From: Candidatus Liptonbacteria bacterium
Lineage (GTDB): Bacteria; Patescibacteriota; Minisyncoccia; UBA6257; 2-01-FULL-56-20
Assembly: GCA_016194445.1 (NCBI GenBank)
Contig: JACQBP010000026.1
Span: 1-38,998, forward strand
Direction of reading: 5' to 3'
Length of the DNA: 38,998 bases
This document shows, piece after piece, positions 5,959 through 33,004 of the stretch. Below the pieces are notes generated by a model. It was not told where the DNA came from. It made no database searches and saw nothing but the letters and a program-made list of their open reading frames with translations. Within the stretch, counting starts at the first letter, position 1. Each line of letters opens with the position of its first letter. Made by a program: the position numbers and the translations under genes.

Positions 5959-8562
5959 TTACTTTTTGTGTTCGGGCGCGTTGATTAGCCCGCACTTTTT
6001 ATATTTCTTACCACTACCACACGGGCAAGGGTCATTGCGGCCCACTTTAGCGCCACTAGCCACTGGGGTTTGGCCACTAGGGAGTGCAGAATTATTGTGT
6101 TGATGCTGGTTTTGACTGCCGAGTTGGGAGCGGAAAAGATTCATAAAGACGAAACTGTCGAAATTGTTCCAAAAATCTTGAAAAAGAACGCGGCTTTCTT
6201 GCTTGAATTCGACTAGAGGATCTTTTTGACCGTAAGCGCGGAGACCGATGGATTCGTTTAGGGCTTCTAGATTTTCGAGATTCGTCATCCAAAGCATATC
6301 TAAAATACCTAAAAGTTTACTCGGAGACATCGGATCAACGCTGATTTCAAAGCTTCTTTTGGTGATCAGACTTTTTAAATTATCGAGGTCAGGATTTTCC
6401 GGATAAGGGTGGTCGCTGGTCGCCAGACCAGATTCTTTAAAAAGGTTTTTAATTTTTTCTTCTTTAGATAAAGTCGGAGTTTCTTCGTCGAGAGAATCCG
6501 AATCTGGAAGGTTAAAGATTTTTTCTAAATGATTAGCCGAGGATTCAAAAATATAATTAGCCAATTTTTCGCGACTTAAGCTTTCTAAAAATTCCTGCCG
6601 CCGTTTGTAAACATTGGCCCTTTGTTTGTTTAAGATGTCGTCGTATTCGAGCAAGTGTTTTCTTAAATCAAAATTGGCGCCTTCGACGCGACTTTGAGCT
6701 TGGGCAACGGCTTTCGAAACAATGCCAACTTGAATGGGCACGTCGTCGGGCAGATTGAATTTTTCCATCAAGTTTTTGACCCTCTCGCCGCCGAAAACTC
6801 GGACGAGGTCATCTTCTAACGAAAGAAAGAATTGAGAAGAACCGGGGTCACCTTGGCGACCGGCGCGGCCGCGGAGCTGATTGTCGATGCGGCGAGCTTC
6901 GTGGCGTTCGGTGCCGATGATATGAAGGCCACCTAGCGTGCGAATTTTTTGCGTTTCCTCGGGATTGGGCGGATTGCCGCCTAAAATGATATCCACGCCT
7001 CGGCCCGCCATATTGGTGGCGACCGTAATGGCTTGGTTATGACCAGCTTGGGCAATGATGGCTCCCTCGCGCTCGTTGTTTTTGGCGTTCAAGACTTCGT
7101 GAGGAATATTTTCTCGACTCAAGAGAGCCGCGAGGATTTCGTTTTTCTCGATCGAAGTGGTGCCGACTAAAACGGGTTGGCCTCTTTGATAATGTTCTTT
7201 AATTTCGGCGGCGATGGCCTGCCACTTGGCCGCTTCCGTTCGATAGATCGCGTCGGGAAAATCTTTGCGCACCAGCGGGCGATTGGGCGGGATGCTCACG
7301 ACCTCTAAGTTGTAAACCTTGTGAAATTCTTCGGCGGAAGTTTGGGCGGTGCCAGTCATGCCAGAGATTTTTTTATAAAGACGGAAGTAATTTTGAACGG
7401 AAATCTTCGCGTAAGTGCGCGACTCTTCTTTGACCTGGACGCCTTCCTTGGCTTCGATGGCTTGGTGGAGACCGCCGTTGTAGCGCCGGCCTTGAAGGAG
7501 CCGCCCCGTGAATTCATCGACAATAATCACCTCGCCATTTTTGACCACGTAATCTTTGTCCCGCTTGAAGATGGCGTGAGCCCTAAGACTCTCTTCGAGA
7601 TAGTGAACGAGACGGAGATTTTGCGAGGCATAGATATTTTTAACGCCAAGCATTTTTTCCACTTTTTCGATGCCTGGATCGGTAATGGCCACCGAACGAT
7701 GCTTTTCGTCAACGATATAATCGAGATCGTTTTGGAGCCGGCTCGCAACACGCGAGAAGGTTCGATAGAAATCGTTCGACTCCTCGTCTGGAGCGGCAAT
7801 GATGAGTGGAGTGCGAGCTTCATCAATTAAAATGCTGTCGACTTCGTCGATAATGGCGAAGGGGTGGCTCCTTTGAACTTGGGTTTCGAGACTGTAAGAG
7901 AGGTTGTCTCGCAAATAATCAAAGCCGAATTCGTGGTTAGTGCCGTAGGTAATGTGGGCCAAATAGGCCTCCCGACGAGAAATGGGCCGTAAAAATTCTT
8001 TTTGGACTAGAAAGCTACCGGTTGTGTCCCTCTCTTTGTCAATGAGTTCCTGGCCGTCTTCCGGGACCTTAAAATCCGGGTCGTAAAGGTAGGCGTTATT
8101 TGGGACAAGGCAAGCGACGCTAAGCCCCAGGAGCCGGTAAATTTGGCCCATCCAGACGGCGTCACGGCGAGCGAGGTATTCATTGACTGTTACGACGTGG
8201 ACGCCTTCTTCGGTTAAGGCGTTTAAATAGGCGGGAGCGACGGCGGCTAGGGTCTTGCCTTCACCAGTCATCATTTCAGAGACTGCACCTTGATGAAGCA
8301 CTAACCCGCCGATTAACTGAACATCGTAAGGACGCTGGCCGAGAGTTCTTTTAGCCGCTTCTCGGACAAGGGCGAAAGCGCGCGGAATGATGTCTCCTAA
8401 GGCCTTACCGTTTTTCAAACTCTCTTTGAGGTCGGCGGTTTCTTTTTTGAAATCTTCGTCTTTGAGCTTTTCAATTTCGCTTTCAAGTTTGTTGATCTCT
8501 AGAACTAGAGATTGAAACTTGCCGAGGCTCTGGCCCTGAAAAAGATTTTTTAAAAAACTCAT
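5959..8562 (-). CDS. secA: Preprotein translocase subunit SecA
   Basis: MMTGEGKTLAAVAPAYLNAL, DEVDSILIDEARTPLII, TNMAGRGVDIILGG, C-terminal SEC-C NDPCPCGSGKKYKKC. Confidence 0.98.
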   Translation of the reverse strand: MSFLKNLFQGQSLGKFQSLVLEINKLESEIEKLKDEDFKKETADLKESLKNGKALGDIIPRAFALVREAAKRTLGQRPYDVQLIGGLVLHQGAVSEMMTGEGKTLAAVAPAYLNALTEEGVHVVTVNEYLARRDAVWMGQIYRLLGLSVACLVPNNAYLYDPDFKVPEDGQELIDKERDTTGSFLVQKEFLRPISRREAYLAHITYGTNHEFGFDYLRDNLSYSLETQVQRSHPFAIIDEVDSILIDEARTPLIIAAPDEESNDFYRTFSRVASRLQNDLDYIVDEKHRSVAITDPGIEKVEKMLGVKNIYASQNLRLVHYLEESLRAHAIFKRDKDYVVKNGEVIIVDEFTGRLLQGRRYNGGLHQAIEAKEGVQVKEESRTYAKISVQNYFRLYKKISGMTGTAQTSAEEFHKVYNLEVVSIPPNRPLVRKDFPDAIYRTEAAKWQAIAAEIKEHYQRGQPVLVGTTSIEKNEILAALLSRENIPHEVLNAKNNEREGAIIAQAGHNQAITVATNMAGRGVDIILGGNPPNPEETQKIRTLGGLHIIGTERHEARRIDNQLRGRAGRQGDPGSSQFFLSLEDDLVRVFGGERVKNLMEKFNLPDDVPIQVGIVSKAVAQAQSRVEGANFDLRKHLLEYDDILNKQRANVYKRRQEFLESLSREKLANYIFESSANHLEKIFNLPDSDSLDEETPTLSKEEKIKNLFKESGLATSDHPYPENPDLDNLKSLITKRSFEISVDPMSPSKLLGILDMLWMTNLENLEALNESIGLRAYGQKDPLVEFKQESRVLFQDFWNNFDSFVFMNLFRSQLGSQNQHQHNNSALPSGQTPVASGAKVGRNDPCPCGSGKKYKKCGLINAPEHKK

Positions 8563-26842: not shown

Positions 26843-27256
26843 CTAGCGCACCGTCTGTAATGCTAGCGGATCGCGTTTATTTAAAATTGAGAGCCAGGCG
26901 AGAAAACGATTTTTTAACTTGAAAATGTCTCCGGAGAGCTGAACACTAGATTTTTGAAAATAATAAGTAACTTTAGGTCTGACTTTAGCGGCGACGAAAA
27001 CGCCGGCGATTAACGAGAAAGCCAAAAGAAGCAGGGTTAAGATGTTGGTTTGACCCAAACTTGCCCGAAGAGAGGCTTGAAGATTGGAGAGATGCTCGAG
27101 GGTAGAATTGATCGGGTTAACCACCTGGGCACAGTTGCTAGAAAATTCAAAGAGGCAAGAATGGTGCATGGCGTGGCTCGCGTGGGCCAGGCTCGAAAAG
27201 CCGAGGATGTTCACGATCACAAAGGCGAAAAGAATAAAAAGTCCCTGGGGTTTCAT
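26843..27256 (-). CDS. Secreted/membrane His-Cys protein of unknown function
   Basis: Signal-like N-terminus then HASHAMHHSCLFEFSSNC; second TM. Confidence 0.6.
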   Translation of the reverse strand: MKPQGLFILFAFVIVNILGFSSLAHASHAMHHSCLFEFSSNCAQVVNPINSTLEHLSNLQASLRASLGQTNILTLLLLAFSLIAGVFVAAKVRPKVTYYFQKSSVQLSGDIFKLKNRFLAWLSILNKRDPLALQTVR

Positions 27257-27306
27257 TGGTTTTAGATTAGCACTATACGGAAAATCTCGCAAGACGCGGA
27301 GCAAGC

Positions 27307-28422
27307 CTAGCCAAAAGTGAAGGTAAAAGCTTTGAGTCCGGGAGTGGGGATGAGGATTTCAAGGGTGTGTTCGCCGTAGGTGGGATCTTTAATTAATTCG
27401 TAAAGCTGGTCGGTTTGGATGTCGAGAGATTTGATTAAGTGCCCGTCCTTCAAAATCTGAACTTTGGTAGAGCTCGGCGCGCTCGAAACAAAATAAACAT
27501 CCTTGGAGTGGTACTTAAAGATAATTTTGGCGTTCTGACTTAAACTTTCGGCGTATTGATTTTCGATTTTCCAGCGGCCGACTAGGTAGAGAGTGTTGGC
27601 TTTGACCTCGGGCGGGTTTTTGAAATCGAACTCACCCGTGACTCCTGGCTGGCCACTGCCGAGATATTTATTTCGAAAAGCGCCGAAGTAGGTTTCCGGA
27701 CTGCCGATTTTAGAAAGATCACTGCCAACTTCTTCTTGGGGAGAGGTAATGTCGTTCTTCAATTTCATTTTTTCGCCTAGAACTGACATCCTTTCAGCGA
27801 GAGCCGCTTGGATTTTACTTTCGGTTTCGGCATAGCCACCTTCACCGATGTGGTCGTAGATAATAGCCCCGTGGATGTCGATTAAATATTTATGCGGCCA
27901 GTATTGATTACGATAAGCCTGCCAAGTCGAGTAGTCGTTGTCCAAGACAACGGGATATTGAATTTTTTCTTTTTTGACGGCGGCGGTGACATTTTCGTAT
28001 TTTTTCTCGAATTCAAACTCGGGGGTGTGGACGCCGATAATTTCTAACCCTTGGTCTTTATATTTCTCGTACCAGGCGTTTAGATAAGGCGTGGTGCGCT
28101 GACAATTGATACAGCTGTAAGTCCAAAAATCAACGAGGATAACTTTTTGACCCACGAGATCACCGAGCGAGATTTTTTTAGTATTGATAAAGCCGTCGGG
28201 CGTAGAAATTTCATGGTAGCACTCGAGCGATCCCGCTTTTTCTGAACCCGGAGAACAAGTGACGATGCTAGTCTGACTTTTGGTACTAGTGGCTTGATTG
28301 ACCGGAGAAACGGCTTCGTTTTGGGGACTTGCGGTTGGACTGGCCTTTTCGGATTGGAGGTAATAGATCGCCCCAGCCACGATAACCAAGACAACGGTAA
28401 GAAGAATTTTGTTTTTGACCAT
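27307..28422 (-). CDS. Thioredoxin-like/TlpA-type protein with DipZ-like C-terminal domain
   Basis: VILVDFWTYSCINCQRTTPYLNAWYEKYKDQGLEIIGVHTPEFEFEK. Confidence 0.88.
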   Translation of the reverse strand: MVKNKILLTVVLVIVAGAIYYLQSEKASPTASPQNEAVSPVNQATSTKSQTSIVTCSPGSEKAGSLECYHEISTPDGFINTKKISLGDLVGQKVILVDFWTYSCINCQRTTPYLNAWYEKYKDQGLEIIGVHTPEFEFEKKYENVTAAVKKEKIQYPVVLDNDYSTWQAYRNQYWPHKYLIDIHGAIIYDHIGEGGYAETESKIQAALAERMSVLGEKMKLKNDITSPQEEVGSDLSKIGSPETYFGAFRNKYLGSGQPGVTGEFDFKNPPEVKANTLYLVGRWKIENQYAESLSQNAKIIFKYHSKDVYFVSSAPSSTKVQILKDGHLIKSLDIQTDQLYELIKDPTYGEHTLEILIPTPGLKAFTFTFG

Positions 28423-28426
28423 GGAT

Positions 28427-29206
28427 TTAGCTGGTTGGTTTTTTGGGAGAAGTCGAGGCGAGATAGGAAAGGAAACCGGGGATGAGCGGGAGGATGCAGG
28501 GGCTAAGGAAAGAACCTAAACCAGCAAAGAGAGCCACGGCAAGATTGACTAGATTCAGAGACATAATATGTTCGCCAACGGAGGTCGAGACACCGAGCTG
28601 GTCTAGGAAATTGACGACGACTTCCAGATTGGCGATCCGGCTCAACTGACCCACGAAAATCAAGATACCCAAAAGGATGAGAATGACGCCAAAGAAATAT
28701 TGAAAATAATCGAGCCAGCGGCCGGCGCGATTAATAAAATTTTGGGCTTGGTTCGCAAAGAGACCAACGATGAGAAACGGCAAACCGATACCGAGGGTGT
28801 AGGCCATGAGAAGAAAGAAGGCGCCACCCGGCGAAGTTGCGGCGAGAGCGAGGATAGCGCCTAAGGCCGCGCTCACGCAAGGCGTCCAGCCAACGGCAAA
28901 GGCGGCGCCAAAAACAAAAGAGGTCAGGTAGCGGGAGTTGAATCGGGTTTTAACGGCGAATTTGTGATCGCGTTCTAGAAATGGAATTTTGATGAGTTTT
29001 AAAACGACTAACCCAAAAAGAATAATGACCACTCCCCCAACCCGACCAAGCCACGCTTCAGCCGTATAAGAAGAGTGCTCTAAGACCGTTTGGAGTAAAA
29101 CGCCAACGAGCGAAAAGACAACTGAAAAACCGAGCACAAAGAAAAGACTCGACAAAAAAATTTCTGAGCGACTGGGCCCGGTTGGGCTTTGGGCTTGAGG
29201 CTCCAT
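28427..29206 (-). CDS. CcdA-like cytochrome c biogenesis/thiol-redox membrane protein
   Basis: GLGSFLSPCILPLIPGFLSYLA (at C-terminal end) and VGWTPCVSAALGAILALA, six TM. Confidence 0.85.
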   Translation of the reverse strand: MEPQAQSPTGPSRSEIFLSSLFFVLGFSVVFSLVGVLLQTVLEHSSYTAEAWLGRVGGVVIILFGLVVLKLIKIPFLERDHKFAVKTRFNSRYLTSFVFGAAFAVGWTPCVSAALGAILALAATSPGGAFFLLMAYTLGIGLPFLIVGLFANQAQNFINRAGRWLDYFQYFFGVILILLGILIFVGQLSRIANLEVVVNFLDQLGVSTSVGEHIMSLNLVNLAVALFAGLGSFLSPCILPLIPGFLSYLASTSPKKPTS

Positions 29207-30015
29207 TAGCTCGAAATGAGTTTGTTAATTTCCGATAGGTAGCGATCTTTGTCCCAACCATCTGGCGCTTTTAAGATCCGCTCTCCATTTTTCACAAAAA
29301 CCTTAGTGTGCTGGTAGGCCACGCCGAATTGTTTAGCCAGGGCTTCTTCGTCTTGGTCGGTGTCGCTGTCTTTATAATTGACGCGGAAAGCGATGACTTT
29401 ATCGGATTTCAATTCATCGAAGGCCGACTGCATCTTAGGAAATTCAGCCTTGCAAATGGGACACCAGTTGGCATAGAAATAGAGGACGATCAACTTATTT
29501 GATTTTATGGCGACGTCGTAATCTGGTTTTGTGAAATCAAGAAGGGGCGCCGACGTGCCGGCAAGCACTGTCCCCATATATTTATCCATCATCTTCCCTT
29601 CTTTATTCATCATTGCCTTTTCGCCAGCTTCCATAATAGAACCATCTCCCCACACCGACTGTCCTTCCTTGAGCTTTACTGCTGTGCCGTCTTTCTTTGT
29701 CACTTTCCCAGCGAGCGTTACCTTCACACCGCTCTCAAATGTATAGTCCTTCGCGAGAGGCGACATCGTGCCATTTTCTTCCAACATGATCTTGCCATCT
29801 TTGAGAACAACGCCTTTCTCCGGCATTGCTTCACTCTTCTTTTTCTCCATAGCCTCTTTTTCCATTAACAACTTTTCTCGTTCCTGAAGTGGCGAGGTTT
29901 CTTTAGATTGCTTGTGGATAACAAAATATCCAACTCCGGCAACGACACCCACGAAAACCACAATCGCGATAACAATGGGCATCGCGAAACCCATTCGAGA
30001 ATTAAAGTTTTTCAT
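29206..30015 (-). CDS. Membrane-anchored thioredoxin-like protein with DUF6799-like repeat
   Basis: LIVLYFYANWCPICKAEFPKMQSAF; GVVLKDGKIMLEENGTMSPLAKDYTFESGVKVTLAGKVTKKDG. Confidence 0.87.
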   Translation of the reverse strand: MKNFNSRMGFAMPIVIAIVVFVGVVAGVGYFVIHKQSKETSPLQEREKLLMEKEAMEKKKSEAMPEKGVVLKDGKIMLEENGTMSPLAKDYTFESGVKVTLAGKVTKKDGTAVKLKEGQSVWGDGSIMEAGEKAMMNKEGKMMDKYMGTVLAGTSAPLLDFTKPDYDVAIKSNKLIVLYFYANWCPICKAEFPKMQSAFDELKSDKVIAFRVNYKDSDTDQDEEALAKQFGVAYQHTKVFVKNGERILKAPDGWDKDRYLSEINKLISS

Positions 30016-30022
30016 GTTTCTA

Positions 30023-30063
30023 ATTTTAGAAGCCAGGAAACCAATGTCAAGTCGACTTTACAC
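30023..30063 (-). promoter_or_regulatory. Promoter of thioredoxin operon with operator-like motif
   Basis: Minus TTGACA-N16-TAAAAT; motif ATGTCAAGTCGACTTTACAC (30044-30063) over the -35. Confidence 0.65.
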
Positions 30064-30083
30064 GATAACTGGGGATAACTTTT

Positions 30084-30452
30084 CTAGAAATTCTGGCGGC
30101 TGTAGATAAGACTGACGATTTTACCTAAAACCATAAACGCAAGGCTAATGACCAACCAAGGGTCGATCGCATGCGAAAGACTCTGAACCACGATACCAGC
30201 TGTAAGACCGGCCGCGCCTAAAAGATAAGCGAATCTGCCGGCCATTAAGCGATGGAGTTTTTCTCTCTCGTCGGCCGCCTTTTCTCGCCAAACAAAAACA
30301 GCGAAAACCCCGAAAGTCGCGACTAACAGCATTGCTGCGGTCATGGTAAGGGTGCTCGGCATCCAAAAATCGAAAGGATTAGCCACTAAAACCAGAAGGA
30401 TGATAAAAGCCAACGAAATTAAAAGTTCCTGGATAAATTTATTTTTTCCCAT
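30084..30452 (-). CDS. Four-TM membrane protein partnered with the XRE regulator
   Basis: Hydrophobic 122-aa ORF overlapping the XRE stop by 14 nt. Confidence 0.7.
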   Translation of the reverse strand: MGKNKFIQELLISLAFIILLVLVANPFDFWMPSTLTMTAAMLLVATFGVFAVFVWREKAADEREKLHRLMAGRFAYLLGAAGLTAGIVVQSLSHAIDPWLVISLAFMVLGKIVSLIYSRQNF

Positions 30453-30654
30453 GATGAATTTCGAAAATTTCTTCGACCGGTTTTTTGAAAAAATTGGCGA
30501 TTTTTATGGCGAGAAGAACCGAGGGCGTGTAGTTACCTTTCTCAATGGCAATGACGGTCTGCCGGGTGATGTCCACGGCATCGGCTAATTCCTCTTGAGT
30601 GACGCCCAATTTACTCCTTAAATTATAAACCGTATTTTTGACAGTGTCGCTCAT
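30439..30654 (-). CDS. XRE-family HTH regulator
   Basis: NLRSKLGVTQEELADAVDITRQTVIAIEKGNYTPSVLLAIKIANFFKKPVEEIF. Confidence 0.95.
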   Translation of the reverse strand: MSDTVKNTVYNLRSKLGVTQEELADAVDITRQTVIAIEKGNYTPSVLLAIKIANFFKKPVEEIFEIHHGKK

Positions 30655-30660
30655 GTTGGA

Positions 30661-30702
30661 AAGATAGCTAGCGGCGAACTTGATGTCAAATTAACTTTAC
30701 GC
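30661..30702 (-). promoter_or_regulatory. Leaderless-type promoter of XRE gene with operator-like motif
   Basis: Minus TTGACA-N17-TATCTT, 6 nt before ATG; motif ATGTCAAATTAACTTTACGC (30683-30702). Confidence 0.65.
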
Positions 30703-30782: not shown

Positions 30783-31097
30783 CTAGTTTTTCTTTCGATC
30801 AAGTTTATCCAATCTTAAAAGCTTTACGCCATAGTAAACCACGAGAGCAATCACCAGAAAGTCGATAATGGAACTTAAAAAACTGCCCCAAAGAATTTTG
30901 ACCGACCCGATTTGAATTCCAGCTTCTTTCAACTCTCCAGCTGCGCCAAGTAAAACGCTTAAAATGGGATTGATGATATCGCTCACCAGCGAGGAAACTA
31001 TTTTAGAGACCGCGCCGCCAAGAATAAAGCCGACCGCTAGCCCAACGACCCCCTGCTCTCGAATAAAGCTAATGAAGCTTTTTATAGGTTTAATTAT
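30783..31097 (-). CDS. mscL: Large-conductance mechanosensitive channel, apparent non-canonical start (ATA/ATT)
   Basis: IIKPIKSFISFIREQGVVGLAVGFILGGAVSKIVSSLVSDIINPILSVLLG; no ATG/GTG/TTG at the expected N-terminus. Confidence 0.85.
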   Translation of the reverse strand: MIKPIKSFISFIREQGVVGLAVGFILGGAVSKIVSSLVSDIINPILSVLLGAAGELKEAGIQIGSVKILWGSFLSSIIDFLVIALVVYYGVKLLRLDKLDRKKN

Positions 31098-31110
31098 ACC
31101 ACCCCGACAA

Positions 31111-31980
31111 TTATTTTCCGTAATATCCCAAAAGCGCCTTGATGCCCGCCAGGTTTTTATCCCACTCAATCGATTCGTGAGTTTTGAGTTCAACCGTGAT
31201 GGCCGGAATCCCGATTGAGGCCAACCAATCTTCCGCCGCCCCCGTCACCGCGTAGGCGTCAAATGTGTCTGCCGCCGGATATTCGGCGGCGCTGGAGTAA
31301 GCCTTCATAATGGCGAGCACTTCAGGCAAAATCCCTTTTTCACACTGCGAGGCATACACGGCGTTCGCCTGACTGTGCCAAAAAACTACCGCCACTGGCC
31401 GCTCGCGCAAAACAAAGTCCCGAATCGCCCGCGCCTCCGGCTCGGAAAATGCCGCCGTCCCCGCGCTCACTTTTTTCCCCTTCCAAGTTCCCTCCTTCTG
31501 CCATTTGCAATCAAAATTTCGATTGAGATCCACTTTGTGCGCGTTGAATCGTCCTGGCTCTTGCGCTACGCCCATTGGCACATCCGCCGCTGTAAAACGT
31601 CCCTCCTTGTCGATTACTTTAAAAACTCCGTCTGGGTTAGCCGACGGAATCACCGTCACCGCCAAATTCGCCGGCAAAGTGCTGGAGTTTGCGTTCAAGT
31701 AATCCAAAAATTCATATGCCAAAACCACGCTGTTCCACTCGTACCCGCCGTGAATCCCGCCCACAAACACAAAATGTTTCGTTCCGCTTCCATATGTATA
31801 CGCCTCGATCTTTCGGTCCTCCACCGACATTCCCAAAATTTCCTGTTTGAAAGCCACTGTTGGCTCCACCGCCGGCGCCGGTTTCTCTTTGCTGTGAAAA
31901 ATCAAAAACAAAATCCCGGCCAACACCAAAATCGCCGCCCCGCCCAAAATCAGCGTCCGCTTCATGAAAGTCGTCTCCAT
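31111..31980 (-). CDS. M14-like zinc carboxypeptidase paralog 1
   Basis: GGIHGGYEWN (HxxE), PSANPDG, VDLNRNFDC. Confidence 0.82.
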   Translation of the reverse strand: METTFMKRTLILGGAAILVLAGILFLIFHSKEKPAPAVEPTVAFKQEILGMSVEDRKIEAYTYGSGTKHFVFVGGIHGGYEWNSVVLAYEFLDYLNANSSTLPANLAVTVIPSANPDGVFKVIDKEGRFTAADVPMGVAQEPGRFNAHKVDLNRNFDCKWQKEGTWKGKKVSAGTAAFSEPEARAIRDFVLRERPVAVVFWHSQANAVYASQCEKGILPEVLAIMKAYSSAAEYPAADTFDAYAVTGAAEDWLASIGIPAITVELKTHESIEWDKNLAGIKALLGYYGK

Positions 31981-32888
31981 TATTTAGCGTAATGATTGAG
32001 GAAGGCTTTAATGCCGGCTTCATTCTTAGTCCATTCGGTGTCTTCGTGATTCGTGAGCAAAACGCTAATCGCCGGAATCCCCTGCTTCGCCAGCCAGTTG
32101 ACCATATCTCCCGTGATCTCGTAAAAATTAAATTCCTTATAGACTTTATAACCCGAGGCCTTGCCGTAAAGGTTGGCAAGCACGAGAGTCTCCGGCAAAA
32201 CGCCCGCGTGGCAGTTGGACGCGAACACCCCGTTCGCCGCGCTATACCAAACCAAAGCCGCCACCGGTTTCTTTGTTTCTATATAATTTTTAATCGCTTG
32301 GGCTTCCGGTTCGGAAAAAACCGCGCTGCCCCCACTCACCGTTTTATCCTGCCAAACCGCTTTGGCTTTCCAGTCGCAATCAAAGTTGCGGTTCAGGTCC
32401 ACGTTATTAGCGTTAAACCGACCCGCCACCTGAAGCGCCTGATCTGCCAACACATCTGTCTTAGCAAACTTGCCCGCCGTGCTCGCCACTTTTGAAAGAC
32501 CGTCCGGATTTAAAACTGGAATCACCGTTACTTTCACACCCCCCGGAACAGCGCTAGGGTTCGCCTTTAGGTAATCCATCATCTCGTAAGCGACCAAGGC
32601 CGTGTTCCACTCGTACCCGCCGTGGATGCCGCCGACAAACAAAATTTCTTTTGCGCCCGTGCCATAATGGTACGCCAAAATATCTCGGCCTCCGGCCGAT
32701 TTGCCAATCACCGATTGATCTTTGTTTTGGTTTTGATCCGTTACGGGTGACCCACCCGTTTGGTCGGTGCTAGTCGCCCCGCTCTGATTCCCGGTGATGT
32801 CGACGCTTTTAGACGAATTCCTGAATAAGAAATACGCCCCGACCCCCACCAACCCAACTACAACCAACCCGATAATGATTTTTTTCAT
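31980..32888 (-). CDS. M14-like zinc carboxypeptidase paralog 2
   Basis: GGIHGGYEWN, PVLNPDG, VDLNRNFDC; start at MKKIIIGLVV; stop overlaps next start (TAATG). Confidence 0.82.
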   Translation of the reverse strand: MKKIIIGLVVVGLVGVGAYFLFRNSSKSVDITGNQSGATSTDQTGGSPVTDQNQNKDQSVIGKSAGGRDILAYHYGTGAKEILFVGGIHGGYEWNTALVAYEMMDYLKANPSAVPGGVKVTVIPVLNPDGLSKVASTAGKFAKTDVLADQALQVAGRFNANNVDLNRNFDCDWKAKAVWQDKTVSGGSAVFSEPEAQAIKNYIETKKPVAALVWYSAANGVFASNCHAGVLPETLVLANLYGKASGYKVYKEFNFYEITGDMVNWLAKQGIPAISVLLTNHEDTEWTKNEAGIKAFLNHYAK

Positions 32889-33004
32889 CCCGTTAGAAAT
32901 AGACAACTAAATATGTTGTCTATGAAAACTTACAATAAGCTCGACAAGCTTATTGGGTATGCCATTTTTAATATTAAATTGTTGTCGTTGATTTCTAACG
33001 GGAT
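32887..33004 (-). promoter_or_regulatory. Structured leader of the M14 operon
   Basis: 14-bp perfect IR ATCCCGTTAGAAAT(32887-32900)/ATTTCTAACGGGAT(32991-33004) overlapping the ATG; inner hairpins AGACAAC/GTTGTCT and AATAAGCT/AGCTTATT. Confidence 0.55.

Follow-up and report, generated by a model that had tools for sequence, protein, structure and literature searches.

A conserved palindrome over the promoters of a CylR2-like regulator and a methionine-rich thioredoxin operon in Patescibacteria

Most Patescibacteria cannot be cultured and, to our knowledge, almost nothing is known about gene regulation in them. A stretch of 38,998 nucleotides from a Candidatus Liptonbacteria bacterium (contig JACQBP010000026.1, analysed whole and called the window here) contains two similar 20-nt sites, one at the promoter of a small XRE-family regulator gene and the other at the promoter of a neighbouring thioredoxin operon. 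This arrangement raises the question of whether the repeated site is the operator through which the regulator would control both gene groups, and to what signal such a system would respond. The features concerned are the following:

30683..30702, minus strand: operator O-xre (GCGTAAAGTTAATTTGACAT on the minus strand), the right half of which is the −35 box of the XRE gene
30661..30689, minus strand: promoter of the XRE gene, TTGACA N17 TATCTT, with the −10 box ending 6 nt before the ATG
30439..30654, minus strand: XRE-family (HTH_3, CylR2-like) regulator of 71 aa (Pfam HTH_3, E 5.6e-14)
30084..30452, minus strand: small membrane partner of 122 aa with four helices, overlapping the XRE gene by 14 nt
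30044..30063, minus strand: operator O-trx (GTGTAAAGTCGACTTGACAT on the minus strand), which matches TGTAAAGTNNACTTKACA exactly
30023..30050, minus strand: promoter of the thioredoxin operon, TTGACA N16 TAAAAT, with the −10 box ending 7 nt before the ATG
29206..30015, minus strand: membrane-anchored thioredoxin with DUF6799, a methionine-rich linker (5.6% Met) and a WCPIC active site (Pfam; Met content)
28427..29206, minus strand: CcdA/DsbD_TM-type electron conduit (Pfam DsbD_TM, E 8.9e-18)
27307..28422, minus strand: TlpA/ResA-like thioredoxin with a C-terminal Thioredoxin_10 domain (Pfam)

A direct check of the sequence agrees with the geometry first described for the two sites, which are identical at 16 of 20 positions, each contain the TTGACA (−35) of a minus-strand promoter and are followed by −10 boxes 6–7 nt before the ATGs of the XRE and thioredoxin genes. 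On the minus strand, the XRE promoter consists of TTGACA at 30689–30684 and TATCTT at 30666–30661, with the ATG at 30654; the corresponding positions for the thioredoxin promoter are 30050–30045 (TTGACA), 30028–30023 (TAAAAT) and 30015 (ATG). Both rank within the three best sigma-70-like sites between 25000 and 31200 in a simple scan (11/12 and 10/12), the third site equalling the lower score (10/12). Of the palindromic core proposed by the sequence-only reading, the perfect symmetry stands (AAGTCGACTT is a perfect palindrome and AAATTAACTT has one pair broken), but its length of 10 bp was too short, since the palindrome really spans 18–20 bp. Allowing up to three mismatches, the window has two matches to the joint pattern; the expectation from shuffles is 0.01.

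The conservation of the site was assessed at 80 XRE loci taken from a scan of the collection, 78 assigned to Patescibacteria from their record titles or their company and 2 from archaea. A site was scored when it lay no more than 115 bp ahead of the XRE gene (up to three mismatches) and/or 450–1000 bp after its start (up to two mismatches). In 73 of these loci the palindrome lies at the XRE promoter, immediately behind the XRE–membrane pair, or at both places; the loci were picked by XRE similarity and share ancestry, so that the count is not one of independent events. The sequence-only reading had named beforehand, as the outcome that would speak against it, a motif not kept upstream of orthologs, and the result is the opposite. 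When the half-site was shuffled, at most 1 of the 80 loci matched, compared with 72 for the real half-site. Three more loci (L091, L098 and L123) carry the palindrome further upstream, before a larger gene group, and some have just one of the two sites. Base counts over the orthologous loci yield a 20-bp palindromic consensus, ATGTAAAGT-NN-ACTTKACAT, whose right arm is the −35 box; the −35 hexamers equal the consensus or come close to it (TTGACA/TTTACA) and the −10 box peaks at a spacing of 17 nt. The symmetric conservation spans 18–20 bp and extends far upstream of the −35 box, while column counts show the flanking DNA to be otherwise little conserved. Going by record titles, the system is found in Kaiser-, Nomura-, Campbell-, Harrison-, Roizman-, Levy- and Woesebacteria and WS6. 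The two archaeal XRE proteins (L104 and L109) have the recognition helix of the orthologs, and their loci contain neither a membrane partner nor a site. The XRE/DUF2178-type pairs of three other genomes of the order (G003, G047 and G018; for example, recognition region VRRETIVFLEQGKYNPS) were treated as a separate subfamily; no copy of the exact motif occurs anywhere in these genomes, and no thioredoxin operon was found in the stretch read.

The reading that we favour, with a probability of roughly 0.8, is that a CylR2-like repressor, together with a four-helix membrane partner, controls itself and an operon for extracytoplasmic thiol/methionine redox chemistry. An XRE dimer would bind the 20-bp palindrome over the −35 box of two promoters, that of the XRE gene and its membrane partner and that of the adjacent operon encoding the exported methionine-rich thioredoxin, CcdA and the TlpA-like protein. 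Bound there, it would block RNA polymerase, with a tighter hold on the operon than on its own gene. The membrane partner, encoded on the same mRNA as the XRE protein, would probably act as a sensor of envelope conditions (oxidised thiols or methionines, an oxidant, or copper), relieving the repression so that surface redox repair would be made when needed. Repression by the XRE protein of its own gene and of the thioredoxin/CcdA operon had already been proposed from the window; the conservation of the operator largely upholds this, with binding and repression themselves predicted from sequence. The present analysis adds a paralogous island, the methionine-rich nature of the targets and the kinship with CylR2.

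The regulator is a single CylR2-like XRE HTH domain of ~66 aa, and in the window it contains no effector domain and no cysteine. Its nearest PDB chains are CylR2 (1utx) and 9k3w; the alignment to 1utx is nearly full length (E 1.6e-17 with a profile, 3e-11 with the single sequence). The recognition helix is nearly constant among orthologs, and covariation between operator and protein is therefore unusable as proof of their pairing. The membrane partner adjoins the XRE gene in 77 of the 80 loci and carries an invariant DER motif (D61 E62 R63); an AF2 model shows four helices with a pLDDT of 88. No Pfam family, DUF2178 included, scores above threshold for the window protein, and DUF2178 is absent among the 25 Pfam families listed for 51 partner homologs. 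Scattered, weak Pfam matches within the partner family were rejected as composition effects, and a fold search against the PDB gave nothing significant. Its likeness to DUF2178-type proteins is limited to the DER motif and weak profile similarity (hhalign 39%).

Thioredoxin- and/or CcdA/TlpA-type genes lie downstream at most orthologous loci. The first target gene encodes a thioredoxin at 41 of 56 loci and a DsbD-like protein at 6. These first target proteins contain 6.3% methionine, against a background of 1.9%, and 37 of the 56 have at least two MM pairs, compared with 0.8% of background proteins. At six loci (L044, L047, L054, L072, L077 and L086), the first target is a small membrane-anchored protein with 12–24% methionine and without a thioredoxin active site. 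Methionine sulfoxide reductases (MsrA and MsrB) recur among the operon-mates, and an Msr gene lies within ~4 kb at 17 of 64 loci, two of these genes being upstream on the other strand. The window and C33, a second contig of the source genome described below, contain no Msr gene; an MsrB gene is found elsewhere in this genome, on contig C35.

From these targets we infer that the signal would be the oxidation of thiols or methionines outside the cytoplasm; copper is the main alternative. A broader proposal, which we put forward tentatively and at somewhat less than even odds, is that the system is an envelope oxidative-stress switch found across Patescibacteria, in which the four-helix DER protein would directly sense oxidation outside the cell and titrate or release the CylR2-like repressor, inducing methionine-rich surface thioredoxins as sacrificial scavengers, which CcdA and Msr would then recycle. 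A signal of copper or another metal in place of oxidants is unlikely but the strongest competitor, and one compatible with the operator model: the methionine-rich linkers of the target proteins would bind Cu(I), two loci have cupredoxin domains in the first target gene, and the window thioredoxin contains DUF6799. Nevertheless, the recurrent extra genes of the operons are methionine sulfoxide reductases and not copper pumps, and no copper-pump family appears among the 25 of 38 Pfam families listed for these extra genes.

A less probable alternative concerns the sense of the regulation, the XRE protein acting as an activator: from the palindrome it would recruit polymerase, as lambda cI does at PRM and as the C proteins of restriction-modification systems do. 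Counted from the predicted start, the centre of the site falls near −38.5, close to class II activator positions. However, the palindrome covers the whole −35 hexamer, −35 boxes at or near consensus should need no help, and the nearest relative, CylR2, is a repressor (PMC3709268); on these three grounds, the favoured reading takes the XRE protein to be a repressor. The distribution of site strength is consistent with a repressor that holds the operon tightly and its own gene loosely. At 35 of 40 two-site loci the operon operator is nearer the consensus than the operator of the XRE gene, at none of the 40 is it further away, and the window shows the same order. In one genome (G051, locus L037), the XRE gene is without a good operator of its own, so that autoregulation is not universal.

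The repeat might also be thought a promoter type only, a sigma or leaderless promoter consensus and no operator at all, as it contains the −35 box at a fixed distance from the −10 box. This is very improbable, given the symmetric conservation reaching far upstream of the −35 box and the distribution of the motif among genomes. A scan of 244 genomes of the order found the exact motif in two, the source genome and G051, a Candidatus Harrisonbacteria genome that has an XRE ortholog and carries the motif between the XRE–membrane pair and the thioredoxin operon; the other 242 genomes all have ordinary promoters. Among 40 whole genomes with the XRE gene, 24 contain the exact motif, at no more than one place per genome, and in 23 of the 24 this place is the XRE locus; in the other it is on a separate 3.9-kb contig in which no XRE or thioredoxin gene was recognised. 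An even, unbiased sampling of the class, 384 genomes in all, yielded 12 with the exact motif, in each case at the XRE locus or at a thioredoxin operon; the motif is found in 11 of 42 genomes with the XRE gene compared with 1 of 342 without it (Fisher p 8e-11); the remaining 341 likewise have ordinary promoters. The sole genome with the motif and without the XRE gene has its site before a methionine-rich thioredoxin-CcdA-TlpA operon. The confinement of the full palindrome to XRE/thioredoxin loci speaks against this alternative. A chance likeness of two promoters can be dismissed, as nothing speaks for it once the shuffles of the window and of the half-site, the genome samples and the conservation across orthologs are considered. 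The exact operator on the separate 3.9-kb contig, at 1501–1518 of L147 (G249:C32, a Komeilibacteria genome), possibly marks an additional member of the regulon.

The 894-kb source genome was searched for the site as well. With up to two mismatches, sites are confined to the window locus and to C33, a 7-kb contig with a paralogous XRE/thioredoxin island; the island has three further sites, the third of which was found at three mismatches. Matches with three mismatches on contigs C5 and C46 lie away from the XRE/thioredoxin islands and were taken as background. The XRE protein of C33 is 64% identical to that of the window and has its own membrane partner alongside, and the island also contains a glutaredoxin, a site TGTAAAGTGAACTTTACA, a methionine-rich thioredoxin, a truncated CcdA and a DUF3179 protein. 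Of the three C33 sites, one precedes the XRE gene and one a thioredoxin operon; the last stands before the gene of a small secreted protein, behind which comes a second thioredoxin-CcdA-TlpA operon. Taken with the window, this placement means that every strong site in the genome precedes an XRE gene or closely precedes a thioredoxin operon.

The island itself (L036, G000:C33) is flanked by 115-bp inverted repeats (1–113 and 6600–6714, 98% identical). These repeats contain a GC-rich hairpin that also occurs in 14 of 41 related genomes (also L217–L224), often in opposite-facing pairs 1.3–5 kb apart whose cargo varies and was read by eye as DNA methyltransferase/restriction-like genes, an ABC transporter, small XRE genes and a symporter-like gene. 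No transposase was obvious. The pairs look like a family of repeat-flanked cargo cassettes. Within the island, at L036:1733–2268, the truncated CcdA gene runs, out of frame, into what is left of the 3′ end of another DER membrane partner gene; a deletion between two copies of the module is the apparent cause.

The promoter geometry had also led to the proposal that both mRNAs are leaderless. In the source genome, −10-like hexamers are most frequent 12–13 nt ahead of first-gene starts (28 of 135, over a slightly wider range) and Shine-Dalgarno-like motifs precede ~10% of genes, which makes leaderless mRNAs plausible and, at the same time, ordinary here. Leaderlessness was rejected as a distinctive feature, being a common promoter class in this genome that is not conserved among orthologs: 19 of 52 orthologous XRE promoters are predicted to be leaderless. 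Elsewhere in the window, the open reading frame listed at 26843–27304 (minus strand) starts with TTG, and a better ATG near 27257, a few nucleotides after a TAATCT box, looks like another leaderless start. An MscL channel is encoded at 30783–31193 (Pfam), and the adjacent genes at 31111–31980 and 31980–32906 (minus strand) encode similar anchored proteins that, by eye, look like M14-type carboxypeptidases in tandem duplication.

The nearest known system is CylR1/CylR2 of Enterococcus faecalis (1UTX), in which CylR2 is a repressor and the membrane protein CylR1 is needed for induction (PMC3709268). Both systems combine an XRE protein of ~66–71 aa without an effector domain and a small multi-helix membrane partner; CylR2 represses an adjacent operon from a site in its promoter, as the XRE protein is predicted to do here. 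CylR1 is predicted to have three helices (PMC3709268), whereas the partner described here has four and the DER motif, the comparison being one of helix number. The cylR genes are divergent from their target, a lantibiotic/cytolysin operon with quorum sensing, whereas the XRE pair lies upstream of its target in the same direction and the target genes are for thioredoxin, CcdA, TlpA and Msr.

Bacillota plasmids (for example, B. licheniformis pBs004 and P. aryabhattai p-LAD3) also encode a CylR2-like XRE protein followed by a small protein, annotated as DUF2178 in p-LAD3. Upstream of this pair in pBs004 (L161, 1428–1461) are two overlapping TGTAAAGT-type palindromes (TGTAAAGTACCCTTTACG / CGTAAAATTCGCTTTACA), and thioredoxin and disulfide oxidoreductase genes lie near the XRE gene, the palindromes suggesting that the operator type extends to Bacillota. 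The plasmid XRE proteins differ, with identities that stay below 60% in every plasmid record; in other Bacillota examples the palindromes are different or none was found, and the profile link between their membrane partners and that of Patescibacteria is weak (hhalign 39%).

On the target side, the locus contains an exported thioredoxin and a CcdA, as in the Etrx/CcdA/MsrAB system, the Etrx thioredoxins of Streptococcus pneumoniae presumably pairing with CcdA-type proteins. Etrx1/Etrx2-MsrAB2 of this species is reported to combine surface thioredoxins and a methionine sulfoxide reductase against extracellular oxidants, with Etrx proteins that are lipoproteins, whereas the thioredoxins here are membrane-anchored and Met-rich (PMC3914529).

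In the part of the literature covered, no description of a Patescibacteria XRE/thioredoxin regulon was found. The kind of regulator, a CylR2-like XRE protein with a membrane protein, is known; what appears to be new is the regulon across Patescibacteria, together with its operator and redox targets. The system supplies a regulator, an operator, a partner and a target operon that are kept across many lineages of Patescibacteria, and the regulon predicts a response to extracellular oxidants that can be tested. It also gives the little-understood CylR1/CylR2-type pair a broad relative outside lantibiotic clusters.
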